NCBI GenBank assembly: GCA_028284325.1
Contig: JANQRX010000012.1
Location: 1-64,000, forward strand
From: Bauldia sp.
GTDB taxonomy: Bacteria; Pseudomonadota; Alphaproteobacteria; Rhizobiales; Kaistiaceae
DNA length: 64,000 bases
Direction: 5' to 3'
Shown: positions 96-19,190 of the stretch, piece after piece
Layout: each line of letters begins with the position of its first letter
Position numbering within the stretch: the stretch's first letter is position 1
Notes under the pieces: generated by a model
Seen by the model: only the letters and a program-made list of their open reading frames with translations
Database searches by the model: none
What the model was told of the DNA's origin: nothing
Made by a program: the position numbers and the translations under genes

Positions 96-1514
96 CTAGC
101 CGCGGTCGCGCATCGAGGTGACCGGATCGGGGGCGGGACTGCGGCCCGACATCTCGTCGCCGGCATCGGGGGCGAGCGGCAGGAACACGAACAGCGACGC
201 CAGCGACAGAACGCCGATCGCGGCGAAGGCGAACAGGAAATCGTCGGCGCCGATCTCGCCGCCACCCGCCTGGGCCGTCAGCTCGAGCACCAGGGCGCCC
301 ACCGTGATGCCGATGGTCAGCGACAATTGCTGCGCGACGCTGGTGAGCGTTGTGGCGCTGCTCAGGCGCTCCGGCGGGATGTCGGCGAACGCCAGCGCGT
401 TGATGGAGGTGAATTGCAGCGAACGGAAGAAGCCGCCGATCAACAGCAGTCCGGAGATCACCACCACCGGCGTCTGGGCGGTGAAGAAGGCTGGCAGAGC
501 GACGAAGATGGAGGCGATGACGGTGTTGACCAGGAGGACGTTCCTGAAGCCGTAGCGTTTGAGGATCGGCATCGCCATGAACTTCATGGCCACCGCCCCG
601 ATCGCGGCCGAGAAGGTGGTCATGCCGGAGGCGAAGGGCGTCATGCCGAAGCCCAGTTGCAGGAGCAGGGGCAGGAGGAGCGGCGTCGCCCCGACACCGG
701 CGCGGAACAGGACCGAGCCGATAAGGCTGAGGCCGAAGGTGGGGATGCGGATCAGCGACAGGTCCATGATCGCGTCCTGCCGCCGACCATGCGTAACCAC
801 GAAGGCGACGAGCAGGACCGCACCGCCCGCGAGCAGCATCGCCACCTCGGCGGTGGTGAACAGGCCGAGCCCGAGCGCCGTGGCGCCGGTCATGAAGGCG
901 GCGAGCCCGACGCCCGCCAGCACGAAGCCGCTGAGATCGAACCGCGACACCTTCTCGGCGCGAATGTCGGGGATGTAGATCGTGGCGAGTACGAAGCCGA
1001 GCACCCCGACCGGAATGTTGATCCAGAAGATCCAACGCCAGCCGACGAAGGTGGTGAGGAAGCCGCCGACGGGCGGCCCCATGAGCGGCCCGACGAGGGC
1101 CGGCACTGTGAGCCACGCCAGCGACGCGACCAGTTCACGCTTGGAGACCGAGCGTAGGAGCACCAGCCGTCCGACAGGCACCATCATCGCCCCGCCCACG
1201 CCCTGCACCACACGCGCCAGCGCCAGTTCCACCAGCGAGCCGGAGAGGCCGCACAGGATCGATCCGACCACGAAGACGACGATGGCGGCGCGAAAGATCA
1301 GGCGCGCGCCGAATCGGTCGGCGATCCAGCCCGACGCCGGAATGAACACCGCGATCGCCAACAGATAGGAGGTCAGCGCGAGCTTGAGATCGATCGGGCT
1401 GGTGCCGAAATCGGCCGCAATCGCCGGCAGCGCCGTGGAAATCACGGTCGCATCGAGGTTTTCCATGAACAGTGCCGTCGCGACAATGAGCGGCACCAGG
1501 ATGCGATCCGGCAT
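96..1514 (-). CDS. MFS transporter, DHA2 (EmrB/QacA-like) drug exporter family
   Basis: The 472-residue integral membrane protein has alternating hydrophobic segments consistent with 13-14 helices. It begins in the DHA2 style with LDATVISTALPAIAADF after the first helix, has a loop-2/3 motif around GWIADRFGARL, and an antiporter motif C-like GPLMGPPVGG. The family exports drugs or metabolites in exchange for protons across the inner membrane; the substrate cannot be inferred. I chose the ATG at 1514 because the longer frame only adds a non-hydrophobic, non-conserved 28-residue stretch. It stands alone next to the IS end on one side and is divergent from guaB on the other. No regulator gene is adjacent. 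Confidence 0.85.
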   Translation of the reverse strand: MPDRILVPLIVATALFMENLDATVISTALPAIAADFGTSPIDLKLALTSYLLAIAVFIPASGWIADRFGARLIFRAAIVVFVVGSILCGLSGSLVELALARVVQGVGGAMMVPVGRLVLLRSVSKRELVASLAWLTVPALVGPLMGPPVGGFLTTFVGWRWIFWINIPVGVLGFVLATIYIPDIRAEKVSRFDLSGFVLAGVGLAAFMTGATALGLGLFTTAEVAMLLAGGAVLLVAFVVTHGRRQDAIMDLSLIRIPTFGLSLIGSVLFRAGVGATPLLLPLLLQLGFGMTPFASGMTTFSAAIGAVAMKFMAMPILKRYGFRNVLLVNTVIASIFVALPAFFTAQTPVVVISGLLLIGGFFRSLQFTSINALAFADIPPERLSSATTLTSVAQQLSLTIGITVGALVLELTAQAGGGEIGADDFLFAFAAIGVLSLASLFVFLPLAPDAGDEMSGRSPAPDPVTSMRDRG

Positions 1515-11282: not shown

Positions 11283-12650
11283 TCAGTCGGTCACGTCGTC
11301 CGGTTCGGCGAACGCATCGCGTGAAAGGCCGTATTTCTGCATCTTGTCGTACAGCGCCTTGCGCGACAGACCCAGCGCCTCATAGGTGTCCTTCAGGCTG
11401 CCGCCATGGGCGGTCAGGCTGGCCGCGATCAGCGCCCGTTCGTAATGCGCGACCTGGTCGGACAGGCTCGCCGGCGCGTCTGGTGTTTCCGACGCCGGGT
11501 CGTCCCCGCCGAGCGCCAGGTCGAGGCCGAGGGCGAAACGGTCGGCGGCATTGCGCAGTTCGCGCACATTGCCCGGCCAGGCGCGGGCCGAAACCGTATT
11601 CAGCACGGCGCCAGGGATGTCGGGCGCGGCGCGCTTGTAGCGGGCGGCCGCCTCGTTGACGAGTTGCACGAACAGGCGCGGAATGTCCTCGCGCCGTTCA
11701 TCGAGGTCAGGCACGCGCAACGTGACCACGTTGAGCCGGTAGAGGAGGTCGCTGCGAAACCGGCCGGCGGCCGCTTCGGCCTCGAGGTCGGTCTTGCTGG
11801 CGGCAACGAAGCGCACGTCAAGCGCGATCGGCTCGTTCGAGCCGAGCCGCGTGATCGAGCGGTTCTGGATGGCGTGCAGGAGCTTCGCCTGCACCTGTGG
11901 CGCCATGCTCTCGATCTCGTCGAGAAACACCGTACCGCCGCGCGCGTGCTCGAACTTGCCGAAGCGTTCACGCGTCGCACCGGGAAAGGCGCCGGCCTCG
12001 TGGCCGAACAGCTCGCTTTCGATCAGCGCGTCGGGCAGGGCGGCGCAGTTGATGTGCACGAACGGCTTGTCGCCGCGCTCGCTCGCCCGGTGCAGCGCGC
12101 GGGCGGCGACCTCCTTGCCGGTTCCGGTGGCGCCGACGATCAGCACATCGGCTTCGGTCTCCGCGATGGCGCGGATCTGGTGGCGCAGTGCGACCATGGT
12201 CGCACTGCGTCCGCCGAGACGCGCTTCGATGGCATCGCGACCACCGACCTGCGAGCGCAGCATGCGGTTCTCGAGCGTCAGGCGGCGCTTGTCGAGCGCG
12301 CGACGTGACGTGTCGACCAACCGCTCGGGCGCATAGGGCTTCTCCAGAAAATCGTAAGCGCCTTCACGCATGCACTGGACGGCCAGTTCGATGTCGCCGT
12401 GCCCGGTCACCAGGATGACCGGGAACTCGGAATCGATCTCCAGGACGCGGCGCATGAGCTCGATCCCGTCCATGCCGGGCATGCGCAGATCCGTGACCAG
12501 AATGCCGGGGAAGTTGCGGCCGATGTGCTCAAGCGCCTTCTCCGCCTGCGCAAGGCAGGTCACGTTCAACTCTTCGAGTTGAAAGGTCTGCGCGGCCGCG
12601 AGGCGCAGATGTTCCTCGTCGTCGACGAACAGGATGGTTTCGTCGCTCAT
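11283..12650 (-). CDS. dctD: DctD-like sigma-54-dependent response regulator
   Basis: This 455-residue activator has three domains. A receiver carries phospho-acceptor Asp54 in TDLRMPGMDG. A central AAA+ ATPase has Walker A GATGTGKE (173-180) and Walker B VFLDEI (241-246). A C-terminal Fis-type helix-turn-helix follows (SLKDTYEALGLSRKALYDKM). The loop that contacts sigma-54 reads GAFPGA (220-225) instead of the consensus GAFTGA. The start overlaps the stop of the sensor gene by four bases, so the two are coupled. It probably drives the TAXI-TRAP genes downstream, though I could not find a convincing -24/-12 promoter in the gap. Confidence 0.88.
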   Translation of the reverse strand: MSDETILFVDDEEHLRLAAAQTFQLEELNVTCLAQAEKALEHIGRNFPGILVTDLRMPGMDGIELMRRVLEIDSEFPVILVTGHGDIELAVQCMREGAYDFLEKPYAPERLVDTSRRALDKRRLTLENRMLRSQVGGRDAIEARLGGRSATMVALRHQIRAIAETEADVLIVGATGTGKEVAARALHRASERGDKPFVHINCAALPDALIESELFGHEAGAFPGATRERFGKFEHARGGTVFLDEIESMAPQVQAKLLHAIQNRSITRLGSNEPIALDVRFVAASKTDLEAEAAAGRFRSDLLYRLNVVTLRVPDLDERREDIPRLFVQLVNEAAARYKRAAPDIPGAVLNTVSARAWPGNVRELRNAADRFALGLDLALGGDDPASETPDAPASLSDQVAHYERALIAASLTAHGGSLKDTYEALGLSRKALYDKMQKYGLSRDAFAEPDDVTD

Positions 12651-14524
12651 TCGGCGGCGACACCCTCGACCATCGGTGCCGCACTTGACGGGGCCTCGGC
12701 GCGCTTCAGGTCGATCACAAAGATGGCGCCGCCATCGGTATGGTTGCGGGCCGACAGGTTGCCGCCGAAATCCTTGATGATGTTGTAGGAGATCGAAAGA
12801 CCGAGACCCAGGCCCTTGCCCGGGCTCTTGGTGGTGACGAACGGATCGAAGATCTGCGCCTGCCCGGCGTCGGGCAGGCCGCCGCCATGGTCGCTCACCT
12901 CGATGCGGCAGCGGTCGCCCGCATCCGTGATGCTGATCTCGATGACCGGCTCGGTATGGTCCTCCATGGCGTCGAGCGCGTTGCTCAGCAGGTTCACCAC
13001 CACCTGTTGCAGGCGCACATGACCGCCCACCACCCAGATCTCGCTGTCGGGTCGCGCGAAGGCGATCGAAGCGCCGCTGGCCTTCAGCCGCGCCTCCATC
13101 AGGTCGATCGCATCATCGATAGCCGCCAGGAGCGGGATTGGCCCCACCTTCTGCTGCGGCCGGCGGGCGAAGTTGCGCAGATGGTTGGAGATCGACGCCA
13201 TGCGGTCGGTCATCCTGGAGATGAGCCGCACATTGTCGCGGGCTTCGTCGGTCCGGTCGCGATCGAGGAACCGGGCCGCATTGTCGGCATAGGCCTTCAC
13301 CGCCGCCAGCGGCTGGTTGAACTCGTGGCTGAGCGCGGCCGACATCTGACCCAGCGCGGCGAGCTTGCCGGCCTGCACCAGATCGGCCTGGGTCTTGCGC
13401 AGCCGCTCCTCGGTCGTCTTGCGTTCCTCGATCTCGTCGGAGAGCTGGCGATTGACGGTGTTGAGATCGAGGGTGCGCTCCGCCACCCGCTTCTCCAGTA
13501 GCTCCTGCGTGGCGCGTTGCGCCTGCAGTCTTTCCGCCAATCGCGCACGCCGCTGCAGGGCGACCGCCGCGATCATCGCCGCCGACAGGATCACCATGGC
13601 CAGAAGCGCCAGCACCGCGACTGCCTCGGCACGCGCGGGGCCGGTTGGCGACATGATCGTCACGTTCCAGCCGGCTTCGGCGATCGGCATCGTCCGGGCG
13701 ATGAAGTTCCCGGTCGCGTCCTCATCGGTGATCTCGATCAGGTCGAACCGGTCGTCGAGCGGTGTCCGCCTGTTCTCCAGCGCAATCACCCGTTCCAGAG
13801 GGTATTGGCGGTCGGCCTCGATTCCCGCCAGCGCATCTTTCGAAAGCGGCGACAACGCGCGGAAATGCCATGCGGGCCGGTTCGACATGAAGATCACGTC
13901 GTTGCCGTCGGTGACGATGATCTCGCTGTCGCCGGCGCGCCAGGCCTCCTCGAAGGTGTCGACCGTAAACTTGACAGCGACGACGCCGCGCACGCGACCA
14001 TCCTGCGTCACCGGTGCGGCGAAGAAATACCCGCGTTCGCCCGATGTGGTTCCGAGCGCAAAGTATCGGCCAAGCTCGCCGGCAAGCGCCTGCGTGAAGT
14101 AGGGGCGGAAAGAAAACCGGCGTCCGATGAAGGAGCGCTCCTTGTGGTAGTTGCTCGACACCAGCGTCAGCCCGGTCGCGTCCATCAGATAAACGTCCGA
14201 GGCGCTGACGTCGTCCGCGGTCTGGCGAAGCTCACGGTTGATCTCGTCGGTCAGTGCCTGGTTGTCCGGGTCGTCGAGAAGTGTGCGCAGTATCGGACGT
14301 TCGGCGATGAGCGCGGGCAGGGGCTCGTACCGGCGCAGCGCGCCCTCAAGGCCCTCGACCGCCAGCCGAAGCGTCGCCTCGCTGCGTTCGCCGTCCCGCA
14401 CGAGAAAGGCGCGCTCCAGCCGCGGCAGGGCGGCCAGCGCAACGGCCAGCGCGACCAGGACGATCAGCGCCAGATAGAGGAATGGACTGTTCAGCCGAGT
14501 CCGGTGCAACGGGCTTGCCGTCAT
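12647..14524 (-). CDS. dctB: DctB-like membrane sensor histidine kinase
   Basis: The 625-residue kinase has a first transmembrane helix at about residues 14-32. A periplasmic sensor of the double-Cache type follows ([26 protein letters not shown]), then a second helix near 305-330 and a coiled coil. The dimerisation/phospho-acceptor domain has His400 in [17 protein letters not shown], and the ATPase domain has N-box [10 protein letters not shown] and G boxes DHGGGLP and [11 protein letters not shown]. It has the typical DctB plan of sensing C4-dicarboxylates or related acids outside the cell and phosphorylating DctD. The ligand here is unknown and may be the TAXI substrate. It is divergent from the ArsC-like gene with an 86-base gap. 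Confidence 0.88.
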
Positions 14525-14973: not shown

Positions 14974-15036
14974 CTACACCTTGCGGACCGGCCCGCGATA
15001 GCGGGCAACGGTGCGGTCGGAGGTGAGCAGGGTCAA
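14974..15036 (-). pseudogene. Remnant of a VapC (PIN-domain) toxin, last 20 codons only
   Basis: Directly behind the antitoxin gene, the minus strand reads LTLLTSDRTVARYRGPVRKV then TAG. This matches the usual end of VapC toxins, where LLTSDR is the last strand of the PIN fold with its acidic residue. Nothing of the first roughly 110 codons remains, and the fragment is out of frame with the antitoxin. The toxin appears to have been deleted, with the junction within a few bases of the antitoxin stop. The identification rests on a short match recalled from the family. Confidence 0.6.
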
Positions 15037-15272
15037 TCTTGGGTTCCGAACAGGCGCTCAGTGTTCCGTTGACCCTTGGTGTCGAAATCGCCGGGCACGT
15101 TGAACGCGCCTTCCATGAAGCCGAGACGGCGGACCGTCGTCGGTGCGTCAAGCGGCACCACTTTCACCAGCGGCTTGCCGGCGCGGGCGATGATAAACGG
15201 TTCGCCGTCCGCGGCCTTGGCGACAAGGCGCGAAAGCTGGGTCTTGGCTTCACGCATGTTGACCGTGCGCAT
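15033..15272 (-). CDS. Phd/YefM-type antitoxin, solitary
   Basis: The 79-residue protein starts with the Phd/YefM signature VNMREAKTQLSRLV, continues with GEPFIIARAGKPLVKVVPL and has an acidic toxin-binding tail (PGDFDTKGQRNTERLFG). Such proteins bind their own promoter and neutralise a VapC-type ribonuclease. The cognate toxin gene should follow but only its last 20 codons remain, so this is an orphan. The reading frame looks intact. It may now serve as immunity to related toxins, as a stray regulator, or be decaying. The start is the ATG at 15272; a second ATG lies five codons in. Confidence 0.8.
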   Translation of the reverse strand: MRTVNMREAKTQLSRLVAKAADGEPFIIARAGKPLVKVVPLDAPTTVRRLGFMEGAFNVPGDFDTKGQRNTERLFGTQD

Positions 15273-15522: not shown

Positions 15523-16275
15523 ATGATCTTGAAAAGACTCACACTCCTGGCGGCGTCGCTGGCTCTTATGGCCGCCCCTGCGCTGGCCGCGGATCTGGGC
15601 GGCAAGGTCCTGAAAGTGGGCTCGGACACCACCTATCCGCCACTTGAAACGGTTGACGAGGCCACCGGCGAGATCGTCGGTTTCGACGTCGACCTCGTCA
15701 ACGCCATCTGTGAGCGGATCAACTGCAAGGCCGAGTTCATCACCACGGCCTGGGACGGAATCTTCGCCGCCCTCGCGCAGGGTGAGTTCGACATGGTCGC
15801 CTCCGGCGTGTCCATCACCGACGAACGCGACAAGACCATGGATTTCACCGATCCGTACCTGATCGTCAGCCAGGCGATCATGATGCGCGTCGATGATGTC
15901 GGCCTGACCATCGACGACTACCGGCAGGGCAGGGTCCTGGGCGCCCAGACGGCCACGACCAACGCGCAGCTCGCCGAGGAACTCGTGGGTCGCGACAACA
16001 TGGCGCTCTACGACACCTTCGGCGCGGCGATCCTCGCCCTCCAGAACGGCGACATCGACGGCGTCATCATCGACGGCACGTCGGCGGCCGCCTACGAGCA
16101 GCAGTTCGCCGGCGAGCTGACCATCGGGATCGAGGGCCTGCAGGCCGATCCCCTGGGGCTGGTGTTCCAGGAAGGCGACGAGATCGTCGACGCGTTCAAC
16201 GAGGGCCTCGCGGCCATCCGCGCCGACGGCACCCACGACGAGCTGGTTGCCAAGTACTGGGGTAGCGACTCCTGA
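15523..16275 (+). CDS. Amino-acid ABC transporter substrate-binding protein
   Basis: The 250-residue periplasmic binding protein of family 3 (polar amino acids) has a signal peptide ending ALA at 20-22. The mature start is KVGSDTTYPPLE; further family motifs are GFDVDLVNAICERI, WDGIFAALAQGEFDMVASG and ITDERDKTMDFTDPY. The ATG at 15523 has AGAGG eight bases upstream; longer versions of the frame add only unrelated residues. It is followed by a rho-independent terminator and then the permease gene. This fits higher expression of the binding protein than of the membrane part. Just upstream, CTCGCGCAAGAC occurs twice (15478-15489 and 15495-15506). The ligand is probably an amino acid. Confidence 0.92.
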   Translation: MILKRLTLLAASLALMAAPALAADLGGKVLKVGSDTTYPPLETVDEATGEIVGFDVDLVNAICERINCKAEFITTAWDGIFAALAQGEFDMVASGVSITDERDKTMDFTDPYLIVSQAIMMRVDDVGLTIDDYRQGRVLGAQTATTNAQLAEELVGRDNMALYDTFGAAILALQNGDIDGVIIDGTSAAAYEQQFAGELTIGIEGLQADPLGLVFQEGDEIVDAFNEGLAAIRADGTHDELVAKYWGSDS

Positions 16276-16306
16276 GACGCGACGTCACGTCCGACCTGTG
16301 AGTGAG

Positions 16307-16338
16307 AGGGCCGGCCGCCACAGCGCGCCGGCCCTTTT
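16307..16338 (+). terminator. Rho-independent terminator or attenuator after the binding-protein gene
   Basis: AGGGCCGGC (16307-16315) pairs perfectly with GCCGGCCCT (16327-16335) across an 11-base loop, followed by TTTT. It sits between the binding-protein stop and the permease start, so it would end most transcripts there and let some read through. Confidence 0.75.
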
Positions 16339-16380
16339 CGTACGTCGCATTCCAACCGGCCGCTGGAAGGGCCACCCGCC

Positions 16381-18021
16381 ATGCAGCTCCTGAAATCCGT
16401 TCGCCCGAGCAACCTCGTCCTGCTCGCCGCCGCCCCGTTCATCGTCTATCTGTTCGCCTCGTCCAGCAAATACACCCGCTCGCTGGTGGCAATCCTGGGC
16501 ATCGAGCCGAACGCCGGCCCGCAACTCGTCGGCTTCCTCGTCGTCCTTGTCCTTGCCGCGCTTGCTTGCGTGCCGTGGTACCAGGACCGCTACGGCAAGG
16601 GATTGCCCGGACCGCGCCTGGTGGTTCCGGCGAGCCACGCCGTCCAGTTCGCGCTGGCGCTGGTCCTCGCGGTCAATCCGTCGCTGGTGGCGGGCTTCGC
16701 CGGCGCGGTCGTCGCCAACTCGGTCGACCCGTTCACCTCGACATGGATCGTGCCGACGGTACGGCCGCGGCAGTTGACGCCCGAGGTCGCCGGGATTCTC
16801 CTGGGCTGGCTACGCGCCGGCTTCGTGGTCTACGCCGTCGTGCTGGCGGGCCTGATCGCCGCGGCCATCATGGCGCCGGAGACCATTGCCCGCCGTGCAC
16901 GTCAGGTGATGGCGGCCGTCGGCGGTCTCGTGATCGCCTATCTCGCCTTCGGCGCCCATTGGGGTTTCGCCACCGGCGTGGCCATCACCTTTCGCGCCGC
17001 GATCTTCGCTTACATCCTGGCGGCGATCCTTGGCCTGTGCTGGACCGGCCTCGCCCTTCTCAAGCTGAAGCCGCGCACGCTGCTGGTCTACGCCATCGTC
17101 AGCGCCGCGCTCCTCGCCGTGGCCGGCTTCTTCTATGCCCAGCCGCGCGACACCTACGCGCTTGTCGGCACGACCGAGGCCAGGATCGCCATCATCAAGG
17201 GCACGCCGCAGAACCTGGCGGACACCATCCGCTTCGGCGAGTACCCCGGCGCGGACGGCACCGACAGCCGCATCCGCAGCGTCGCCACGGTCGACGACGG
17301 CCTGGCGCAGGTTCGCGACAATCCCCAGGTCTCGGCCATCTTTCTGCCCGTCGAAGCCGATCCCGGCACGCTGCCGCGGCTATGGGAGGTCACCTTCCTG
17401 CCGTCCCGTTTTCAATTGCCGGCGCTGGCGTTTTCGGCGCTCGGCCTGCTCCTGGCCGTCTTCACCTTCGGCGGCCACCAGCACCGCATGCACCCGCTGG
17501 CGGTGGCCTCGGAGTTCTTCGTCGATACCATCCGCGGCATTCCGATGCTGGTGATCATTCTCTACATCGGCCTGCCGCTCTCCGGCGCCATCAAGGATGT
17601 GTCGGGCGGCGGCATCGACATGCCCAACATGGTGCGGGGCGTGGTGGCCATCGGCATCGGCTACTCCGCCTACATGGCGGAGATCTTCCGCGCCGGAATC
17701 GAGGCCGTCCCGCGCGGTCAGATCGAGGCCGCGTCGAGTCTGGGGATGAGGAACTGGCAGATCGCGCGCCTGATCGTCCTGCCGCAGGCGCTGCGCATCG
17801 TCATCCCGCCGCTCGGCAACGAGTTCATCGCCATGATCAAGGACACCTCGCTCCTGTCGATCCTGTCGGTGCGCGACATCACGCAGCGCATGCGCGAGTT
17901 CCAGGCGGCGAGCTTCCTGCCGTTTGCGCCGTTCAACACCGCGGCCATCGTCTACGTGGTGATCACGCTCGCCTGCGCCAGCTTCCTCAAGTGGATCGAG
18001 CGGCGCTACGAGGCGCGATGA
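16381..18021 (+). CDS. Amino-acid ABC transporter permease with a large extra N-terminal half
   Basis: The C-terminal part (about 375-546) is a standard HisM/GlnP-type permease domain with the EAA loop that docks the ATPase (EAVPRGQIEAASSLGMRNWQ, 441-460). Ahead of it are about seven hydrophobic segments between residues 11 and 252. A roughly 90-residue hydrophilic, presumably periplasmic segment (254-344) and another helix follow. A usual permease of this family is 220-400 residues; this one is 546. The periplasmic segment (RIAIIKGTPQNLADTIRF and following) vaguely resembles a lobe of a binding protein. No ATPase gene follows in the window, so one must be supplied from elsewhere. Confidence 0.85.
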   Translation: MQLLKSVRPSNLVLLAAAPFIVYLFASSSKYTRSLVAILGIEPNAGPQLVGFLVVLVLAALACVPWYQDRYGKGLPGPRLVVPASHAVQFALALVLAVNPSLVAGFAGAVVANSVDPFTSTWIVPTVRPRQLTPEVAGILLGWLRAGFVVYAVVLAGLIAAAIMAPETIARRARQVMAAVGGLVIAYLAFGAHWGFATGVAITFRAAIFAYILAAILGLCWTGLALLKLKPRTLLVYAIVSAALLAVAGFFYAQPRDTYALVGTTEARIAIIKGTPQNLADTIRFGEYPGADGTDSRIRSVATVDDGLAQVRDNPQVSAIFLPVEADPGTLPRLWEVTFLPSRFQLPALAFSALGLLLAVFTFGGHQHRMHPLAVASEFFVDTIRGIPMLVIILYIGLPLSGAIKDVSGGGIDMPNMVRGVVAIGIGYSAYMAEIFRAGIEAVPRGQIEAASSLGMRNWQIARLIVLPQALRIVIPPLGNEFIAMIKDTSLLSILSVRDITQRMREFQAASFLPFAPFNTAAIVYVVITLACASFLKWIERRYEAR

Positions 18022-18244: not shown

Positions 18245-18766
18245 TCAGTTGACGATCGTGATCGTGGTGTTCGACTTGCCGACCGATTCCACCAGCCGGT
18301 AGAAGGTCTTGGCGTTGTCGGGATGAAGCCGGATGCAGCCATGCGAGGCGGGCCGGCCGAGCCGTTTGATGTCGGTCGTCCCGTGAACGGCATAGCCCCG
18401 GTAGAAGAACACCGACCACGGCATCGGCGCGTTGTTGTACTTACGCGAGCGCCATTTCGCAGCCAGCCAGCCGGCCTGCCATTCGCCGGTGGGCGTGCGG
18501 TAGCGGCCGCGCCCGGTCGAGACCGTGAAGTTGTGCGCCTCGCTCTCGTTGATGAAGATGCGCATGGTCTGATCGGAGAGATCGACGACCGCGCGCACGG
18601 TCTGGCGATCCTCGTCCACCTCGCGCTCGGGCAGTTCGATGGGCGCCAGTGCCACCGTCTGCTCATCGGGTGCCTGCTGGCTGGCAAGCGATGGGGTCGC
18701 ACCCATCGCCACGATGAGCCCGGCCGCCGCAAACGACGCGACCCGGAGGAAGACTGCGGTCTTCAT
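18245..18766 (-). CDS. L,D-transpeptidase (YkuD domain), second of a tandem pair
   Basis: The 173-residue secreted enzyme has a signal peptide (hydrophobic from residue 8, cleavage near SLA). The YkuD domain ends in HGTTDIKRLGRPASHGCIRL, with the catalytic Cys in SHGC and its His upstream. Members make 3-3 cross-links in peptidoglycan or attach proteins to it in the periplasm. The longer upstream frame belongs to other genes read out of frame, so I chose the ATG at 18766 that starts the signal peptide. It begins one base after the stop of its paralogue, so the two are co-translated. A linker of about 25 residues before the domain distinguishes it from its neighbour. Confidence 0.92.
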   Translation of the reverse strand: MKTAVFLRVASFAAAGLIVAMGATPSLASQQAPDEQTVALAPIELPEREVDEDRQTVRAVVDLSDQTMRIFINESEAHNFTVSTGRGRYRTPTGEWQAGWLAAKWRSRKYNNAPMPWSVFFYRGYAVHGTTDIKRLGRPASHGCIRLHPDNAKTFYRLVESVGKSNTTITIVN

Positions 18767-18767
18767 C

Positions 18768-19190
18768 TCAGCGTACCACCTCAATGCGCATGTTGCGCAT
18801 GCCGTAGCGCTTCGCGAGCGAGAACAGCCGCTCGGCGTTGGTGGGATGCAGGCGTACGCAGCCGTGCGAGGCCGGGTTGCCGAGATTCTTGATCGCGTCG
18901 GTGCCGTGGATGGCGTAGCCGCGATGGTAGAAGATCGAATGCGGCATCGGCGACATGTTGTACTTGCGCGAGTGCCACATTTTCTCCAGCCGCTGTGGCC
19001 GGTAGGTGCCGATGGGGGTGACGTAGCCGCGCCGGGCGGTCGAGACGTCCCACGTGTAGCGCGGGAAGCCGTTAACGAAGACCCGCATTTTCTGTTCGGA
19101 GATGTCGATTTTCGCCACGACCGCTGCCGCCGATGCCGGCGCCGCAGCAAGAAGTGGCGCCGCAAGGACCAGCCAGAACAGTTTTCGCAT
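18768..19190 (-). CDS. L,D-transpeptidase (YkuD domain), first of a tandem pair
   Basis: This compact 140-residue paralogue has a signal peptide of about 22 residues (cleavage after ASA) directly followed by a minimal YkuD domain. The active site reads HGTDAIKNLGNPASHGCVRL. It matches the downstream protein over SRKYN, PMP and the catalytic loop, so the pair probably arose by duplication. The short length leaves no room for a peptidoglycan-binding domain. It acts in the periplasm on tetrapeptide stems. The gap of 212 bases to the divergent TPR gene should hold both promoters; none was clear. Confidence 0.92.
   Translation of the reverse strand: MRKLFWLVLAAPLLAAAPASAAAVVAKIDISEQKMRVFVNGFPRYTWDVSTARRGYVTPIGTYRPQRLEKMWHSRKYNMSPMPHSIFYHRGYAIHGTDAIKNLGNPASHGCVRLHPTNAERLFSLAKRYGMRNMRIEVVR

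Follow-up and report, generated by a model that had tools for sequence, protein, structure and literature searches.

The gene at 16381–18021 of the window (the whole stretch of 64,000 nucleotides of Bauldia sp. DNA analysed here) encodes an ABC permease of the PAAT type, with a BPD_transp_1 core, a PAAT-type EAA loop and a family-3 binding protein as its partner. The permease is of a known kind and is new in its two insertions, one of which may be half a binding protein. It is best read as a short permease that carries insert 1 (residues 43–192) and, between TM1 and TM2, insert 2 (residues 232–366). Our leading reading of its function, offered tentatively, is an importer in which the family-3 binding protein would serve a homodimer of the 546-residue permease, the domain in insert 2 would seat the binding protein, and an ATPase encoded on contig C9 would act in trans. 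The features concerned are as follows.

15523–16275, + strand: family-3 substrate-binding protein, 250 aa, partner of the permease (Pfam SBP_bac_3)
16304–16338, + strand: G+C-rich stem-loop between the binding-protein and permease genes (from the fold of 16276–16380)
16381–18021, + strand: long PAAT-type ABC permease, 546 aa, ATG start
16381–16506, + strand: TM0, ordinary N-terminal helix, residues 1–42 (pattern and position; 64–83% identity in the family)
16507–16956, + strand: insert 1, four fast-evolving TM helices, residues 43–192 (identity, dN/dS, predicted helices)
16957–17073, + strand: TM1 of the permease core, residues 193–231 (resembles GVxxTL...AxxLGL of short relatives; dN/dS 0.013)
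17074–17145, + strand: insert 2, ascending TM, residues 232–255 (hydropathy, predicted helices)
17146–17415, + strand: insert 2, periplasmic alpha/beta domain, residues 256–345, possibly lobe-2-like (predicted fold; sequence tests negative)
17416–17478, + strand: insert 2, descending TM, residues 346–366 (hydropathy, predicted helices)
17479–18018, + strand: remaining permease core, TM2–TM5 (Pfam BPD_transp_1; best solved relative 4yms; dN/dS 0.018)
17716–17796, + strand: EAA loop (ATPase-docking loop), PAAT type, GQIEAASSLGM...LPQALR (comparison with PAAT and sugar permeases)
G000 C9:35512–36228 (L113:5507–6337), − strand: orphan GlnQ/AapP-type ATPase gene in the window's genome (profile scores, motifs)

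Architecture of the long permease and its partner

The reading frame is not a chance one, as is seen from its full-length matches and low dN/dS. Across 21 Ruegeria and Shimia copies, median dN/dS is 0.013–0.128 in every segment, with synonymous sites near saturation and 19–125 of the 210 pairs usable per segment. The values, all well under 1, stand at 0.013 for TM1, 0.018 for the core, 0.06 for TM8 and 0.12–0.13 for the inserts (0.123 for insert 1, from 19 usable pairs).

Pfam finds one domain in the 546 residues, BPD_transp_1 at 355–543 (74.3 bits against a cut-off of 26.4), with nothing ahead of it and no binding-protein match anywhere in the protein. Among NCBIfam models, HEQRo_perm_3TM is barely passed (42.5 against 42.2 bits), and the best matches are the amino-acid permeases EhuD, ArtQ and GlnP, each under its own cut-off. 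The EAA region is highly conserved in the family; its EAASSLGM...LPQALR is of the LG type and resembles that of four long PAAT permeases (L119/L126), unlike the five sugar permeases compared, which have DGA in this loop. The solved amino-acid importer 4yms is the top relative by sequence (115 bits), by Foldseek (37% identity, E 6.8e-6) and by VIA (Z 15.7, 166 residues aligned, rmsd 5.9, model 180..497), the full-length permease model being weak (pLDDT 70.6, pTM 0.51).

PAAT permeases are usually compact, and the closest short relatives of the long form, which are paired with binding proteins (L083–L101, L131–L138), have about 270 residues. The sequence-only reading had called the permease one of double size, and a survey of homologue lengths bears this out: 16 of the 19 closest short relatives in L083–L101 have open frames of 268–309 residues against 546, the other three having longer ones (368, 390 and 598).

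The long-permease family is conserved but rare, as is evident from the counts in genome, class and plasmid scans. Matches over the full length, at 58–61% identity, make up 24 of the 80 loci kept by the genome scan (L001–L024), and come from Ruegeria (20), Shimia (one), Paracoccaceae/Rhodobacteraceae MAGs (two) and a MAG labelled Spirochaetaceae (one). The copy in this last MAG (L015; permease 58%, binding protein 77% identity) would be due either to transfer or to mis-binning of the contig. Of 100 further genomes from around the window's own, one (G094) gives a full-length match (50% identity); in the rest, the best matches cover the core only. When searched in 385 genomes of the class, the N-terminal 345 residues matched only their own genome and, weakly and in part, one place in G185. 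Among 72,556 plasmid records, the N-terminal part gave 64 matches (Sinorhizobium 53, Ensifer 9, Ruegeria 2), three of which were examined. One relative sits on pSymB of Sinorhizobium meliloti 1021. The titles and abstract beginnings covered by our literature searches include no paper on the long permease; one of them names SM_b21272 of S. meliloti, there only as a LacI regulator, a tag that was guessed and whose link to the permease locus is assumed.

Averaged over the window protein and nine homologues, hydropathy gives seven hydrophobic segments and then a hydrophilic stretch of 90 residues (256–345), in agreement with predicted helices at 9–27, 45–74, 81–98/101–114, 134–164, 167–191, 195–225 and 231–252. 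Seven segments ahead of the stretch had been noted before, all of them as extra; the count stands, but TM0 (1–42) and TM1 (193–231) are ordinary permease parts, since the closest short relatives have both. The positive-inside rule, applied to the loops with R70/K73/R79, R171/R172/R174, K228/K230/R232 and R369, places residues 256–345 on the periplasmic side, although the same topology leaves K30/R33 and R128/R130/R145 outside too, contrary to that rule.

Short relatives start with TM0, followed by a TM1 of the pattern GVxxTLxVxxxAFxLAxxLGL. The TM0 piece alone gave no significant profile match, and thus its homology rests on pattern and position. For TM1, a profile spliced from TM0, residues 194–231 and the core scores 323.2 against short relatives, compared with 308.4 for the core alone and 310.7–315.2 with six other segments in the TM1 place, a preference that is modest but consistent; structure points the same way, with 43 of 48 permease rows beginning at model residues 193–199. 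It is these splice scores and this structural start that lead us to read the long form as a short permease with two inserts. TM8 was also considered as core TM1 and was rejected on both counts: a splice of TM0, TM8 and core scores 312.3 versus 323.2, though aligned over its full length, and the same 43 rows align from residue 193–199. There were 43 usable short relatives, 21 of which entered alignment A2; L042 was left out of the alignments, having a stop inside its range. Within insert 1, residues 43–184 show 20–32% identity in 11 of the 12 pairs compared and 56% in the pair L082/L128.

The separate binding protein that had been noticed upstream is indeed encoded there, at 15523–16275 (SBP_bac_3, 132.5 bits), and in each of the 28 loci checked, a set that is mostly Ruegeria, the long permease gene is immediately preceded by an orthologous one. 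The Arg and Asp of the window's binding protein align with those of AncQR, an ancestral amino-acid binder, residues that we take to hold the ligand; the Asp is an Asn in the binding proteins of L082 and L128. The gap between the two genes (16276–16380) folds at −49.6 kcal/mol (z −2.7). A stem-loop is found in the same gap in all six relatives folded (z −1.1 to −3.6), four of which clearly beat their shuffles while L128 and L023 do not, and a terminator scan listed none at 16304–16338. Such hairpins often accompany a binding protein that is made in excess over its permease, and the one seen here could lower expression of the permease relative to the binding protein. The window's genome encodes a second family-3 binding protein at G000 C3:79919–80596 (L114:4395–5612), which is probably without a permease of its own, as there is only one PAAT-type permease match in this genome.

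The periplasmic domain of insert 2

Predicted alone, residues 250–346 give a model (pLDDT 71, pTM 0.60) with the order beta-beta-alpha-beta-alpha-beta-beta. The best three VIA-align rows are all SocA, chain 128–230 (Z 8.8, 8.7 and 8.5), a range that we would read as lobe 2. In the best of them, 87 of 97 residues are aligned at rmsd 3.9, the Z being barely above the tool's background of 7–8, which is the typical best for models without a clear match. Of the 50 VIA-align matches listed, we count 41 as family-3 binding proteins or as receptor domains with such a fold (by eye, in rows that are not independent, several being the same protein); LytR-CpsA-Psr entries account for six of the other nine and LysR-type domains for two, the last being of another kind. 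MalF is absent among the VIA-align and Foldseek matches listed. Foldseek gave no match to the domain model at E ≤ 0.001, and its best two are LytR-CpsA-Psr proteins; judged by their names, the first 50 are mostly type II binding-protein folds.

Similarity at the sequence level was sought in several ways. Pfam gives no match to a binding-protein family in the domain in any of 25 family members, and with E up to 10 it returns four unrelated families only (best E 0.087). A PDB profile search with E up to 10 yields two matches, at E 1.3 and 2.5, the second a sugar-binding protein. With hhalign, residues 256–345 show no similarity to the cognate binding proteins or to 38 diverse ones (probability 0.25–0.3% over the two comparisons), and against the 38 the score is reached by 58 of 200 column shuffles.

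The earlier idea that the stretch is part of a binding-protein lobe therefore survives in one respect: the predicted fold is nearest to lobe 2, and binding-protein folds predominate in the structural comparison that had been proposed for this segment. It is not borne out by Foldseek or by the sequence tests, and a Z of 8.8 is modest and near background. The domain is a possible, unproven, degenerate lobe. With an insert of only about 90 residues, the permease is without a complete two-lobed binding domain, and the domain, as judged from its model, is unlikely to bind ligand alone, since a single lobe should not close on a ligand by itself. T275, P276, R284, G286, R299, P323, P332 and W335 are kept in 10 of 10 aligned family members, and the GTPQ turn (274–277) is invariant in 25 of 25. 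This turn, when placed by eye, would presumably occupy the position of the Gly-Thr ligand loop of family-3 binding proteins, and the acidic residue which in those proteins we take to hold the amino group of the ligand appears, again by eye, to be replaced near Pro323. Docking or sensing of the separate binding protein is a possible role for such a domain.

The domain may instead be unrelated to binding proteins, and, together with the extra TMs, stabilize or space the permease of an otherwise ordinary importer with no specific docking role. We consider this plausible, although somewhat doubtful. It would agree with the negative sequence tests, with the LytR-CpsA-Psr proteins at the head of the Foldseek matches, and with a dN/dS in insert 1 and the domain about seven times that of the core (0.12 versus 0.018); yet the domain is under purifying selection, the eight residues named above are invariant in 10 members, and most of the listed fold matches are, as we read them, family-3 or other type II binding-protein folds.

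Genomic context, substrate and energy partner

In Ruegeria and Shimia, the binding protein and the long permease belong to a row of genes on one strand, with a sugar isomerase-like gene and then a LacI regulator ahead of them and a GH42 beta-galactosidase after them. LacI and the isomerase are present in 21 of the 24 genome loci and GH42 in 23. A beta-glycosidase gene is directly downstream of the permease in 25 of 28 loci, 21 of those from Ruegeria or Shimia; in G094, GH1 is found downstream. In Sinorhizobium, there is a LacI gene upstream, and downstream an SDR gene followed by one for an APH-M23-aminotransferase III protein. This protein, in which domains of an APH kinase, an M23 peptidase and a class III aminotransferase are fused, is encoded near the long permease at L130:10358–13381, L128:10358–13381 and L116:3301–6276 (Sinorhizobium, G094), its domains having been tested in L130 and assigned by similarity in L128 and L116. 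None of these neighbouring genes is found beside the window's copy, and GH42 in the window's genome amounts to one weak, local match (36.6 bits, 71 of 376 positions), so that the sugar context of the relatives is not reproduced here. On the minus strand, the window has genes at 11283–14524 for a sensor kinase that contains a dCache domain and for a response regulator of the sigma-54 type, and for a 79-aa Phd/YefM-type antitoxin at 15033–15272 (39.4 bits).

The LacI and beta-glycosidase genes of the relatives' neighbourhoods suggest a glycoside or a sugar-amino-acid conjugate as the substrate. An amino acid linked to a sugar would, speculatively, reconcile the glycosidase context with the amino-acid-type Arg and Asp of the binding protein; the partial texts returned by our literature searches held no support for uptake of glycosylated amino acids. 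A bolder reading joins this substrate to the predicted fold: each subunit would carry a lobe-2-like half binding protein that mates with or gates the free one, and the family would consist of importers of sugar-amino-acid conjugates encoded beside LacI and beta-glycosidase genes. The beta-glycosidase genes downstream, the Arg and Asp of the binding protein and, in Sinorhizobium, the nearby APH-M23-aminotransferase III protein would accord with it. Taken as a whole, we think this unlikely.

As the sequence-only reading had it, no ATPase gene follows the permease: the next genes downstream are those of two adjacent YkuD L,D-transpeptidases on the other strand (18248–18697 and 18771–19190, minus strand). 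For the genome as a whole, the claim that there is no ATPase partner is not supported, as the search elsewhere that had been suggested found one PAAT-type ATPase, on contig C9, without a neighbouring permease. The genome has 121 BPD_transp_1 matches, yet one match to the long permease at E ≤ 0.001, and three SBP_bac_3 matches. The C9 ATPase scores 286.8 bits against EhuA, the runner-up among the 150 candidates scored (out of 167) reaching 177.0. The top five NCBIfam models for it, led by GlnQ, are GlnQ, EhuA, TcyN, HisP and ArtP, each below its own cut-off (306.5 bits for GlnQ, cut-off 379), compared with 156.8 for UgpC, and it has the Walker A, Walker B, signature and H-loop motifs. No permease and no family-3 binding protein was found in the 12 kb fetched around it.

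An ortholog of the C9 ATPase is present in all 27 other family genomes. In 26 of the 28 loci fetched it has a PAAT permease within flanks of about 1.5 kb, and the two without one are in G006 and, as a second copy at a contig edge, in G017. Judging from these loci, the window's genome seems to have lost the usual permeases of this ATPase but kept the ATPase itself, and the simplest view is therefore that it would power the remaining PAAT permease. The PAAT-type EAA loop is in keeping with this. The argument is circumstantial. The energy partner of the long permease is probably encoded elsewhere in the genome.

Another PAAT-type ATPase without a neighbouring permease is that of G006 (G006 C1:2097840–2098577), a genome that also has a short permease with no ATPase beside it; the orphan might equally be served by either of two more permease matches in G006. 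Every PAAT-type ATPase found in G010 and G013 lies near a permease match, with no orphan. Nine PAAT-type ATPases (E ≤ 1e-60) were fetched from Ruegeria G484 and Shimia G487; each has a permease match nearby, and the long permease would thus share an ATPase or use another type. A PAAT-type ATPase was found beside none of eight wider loci of the short pairs L131–L138, the genes there having been called roughly; ATPase sharing may be customary throughout the clade. An ATPase in the same operon is common in PAAT systems but not defining, as clades without it exist.

It is decidedly unlikely that the long permease is powered by a sugar-type (UgpC/MalK) ATPase which carbohydrate importers also use, and we rank such a partner below the PAAT-type one on the basis of the neighbour search and the EAA loop. 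Twelve of the 24 genome loci have a gene of the UgpC type upstream, on the strand of the permease (at least 76% identity to that of L002, itself among the 12), as does L129, but the other 12 genome loci give neighbour matches of 32–34% or none. A more distant one (47%) is downstream in two Sinorhizobium loci, and multitask ATPases of this kind are known (PMC7658222, partial text). The EAA loop of the long permease is nevertheless PAAT-type, and a PAAT-type ATPase that looks intact is kept in the window's genome, where there is no second match to a PAAT-type permease. Very unlikely, and the least probable of these readings, is a transceptor or sensor in which permease and binding protein report ligand occupancy to a regulator, instead of or besides import: it could draw on the missing adjoining ATPase, the LacI regulator that adjoins it in 21 of 24 genome loci and the kinase–regulator pair upstream in the window, but the EAA region, where the ATPase docks, is strongly conserved, LacI proteins generally sense a cytoplasmic ligand, which requires uptake, and no such pair was noticed in the gene lists of relatives read by eye.

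Comparison with known importers and proposed mechanism

The long permease resembles ArtQ, HisQ, EhuD and 4yms in its BPD_transp_1 core, PAAT EAA loop and family-3 binding-protein partner, and differs from them in having twice the length, two insertions and no adjoining ATPase gene. The short orphan pairs (L083–L101; L131–L138) have the same gene order and a core 38–46% identical to that of the long permease, but are without both insertions; their binding proteins are 31–38% identical (18 of 19 loci where found). The Aap/Bzt-type importers, which we take to be those of loci L119, L126 and L141–L168, also have long permeases, four of which translate to 411–436 residues including the stop; BLAST aligns these with the long permease only in the core, from residue 354 on. 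The Aap/Bzt-type ATPases in family genomes are 74–79% identical to the orphan C9 ATPase.

The P2 loop of MalF is likewise a periplasmic domain built into a permease, and presumably lies on the side where the binding protein docks. P2 moves around MalE and has a role in signalling substrate availability (PMC8134467, partial text). Unlike MalF, the long permease is of the PAAT and not the sugar type, with its domain between core TM1 and TM2. GlnPQ and OpuA have a binding-protein-like fold covalently on the permease, as would be the case here if the lobe reading is right. However, whereas GlnPQ carries whole SBDs in tandem (PMC8025302, partial text), the long permease carries no more than one lobe, and a complete binding protein is encoded separately.

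From architecture and gene context, we infer the following importer, our preferred reading. The family-3 binding protein would hand its ligand to the 546-aa permease, acting as a homodimer in which each subunit would comprise a six-TM permease (TM0–TM5), four peripheral TMs and a TM hairpin between TM1 and TM2. The hairpin would hold the 90-residue domain, perhaps lobe-2-like, above the permease on the periplasmic side; the most likely task of the domain would be to assist in seating the binding protein, as an independent counterpart of the MalF P2 loop. ATP hydrolysis would be provided in trans by the orphan GlnQ/AapP-type ATPase of contig C9.

With a periplasmic domain inserted into a PAAT core, the family is a natural experiment in the seating of binding proteins by permeases, and the domain may be an independent counterpart of MalF P2. 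In the window's genome, the one PAAT-type permease match and the one PAAT-type ATPase lie on different contigs, which would make it a simple case of ATPase sharing. Both ideas, on seating and on ATPase sharing, are testable, because a relative of the long permease is found on pSymB of S. meliloti 1021.
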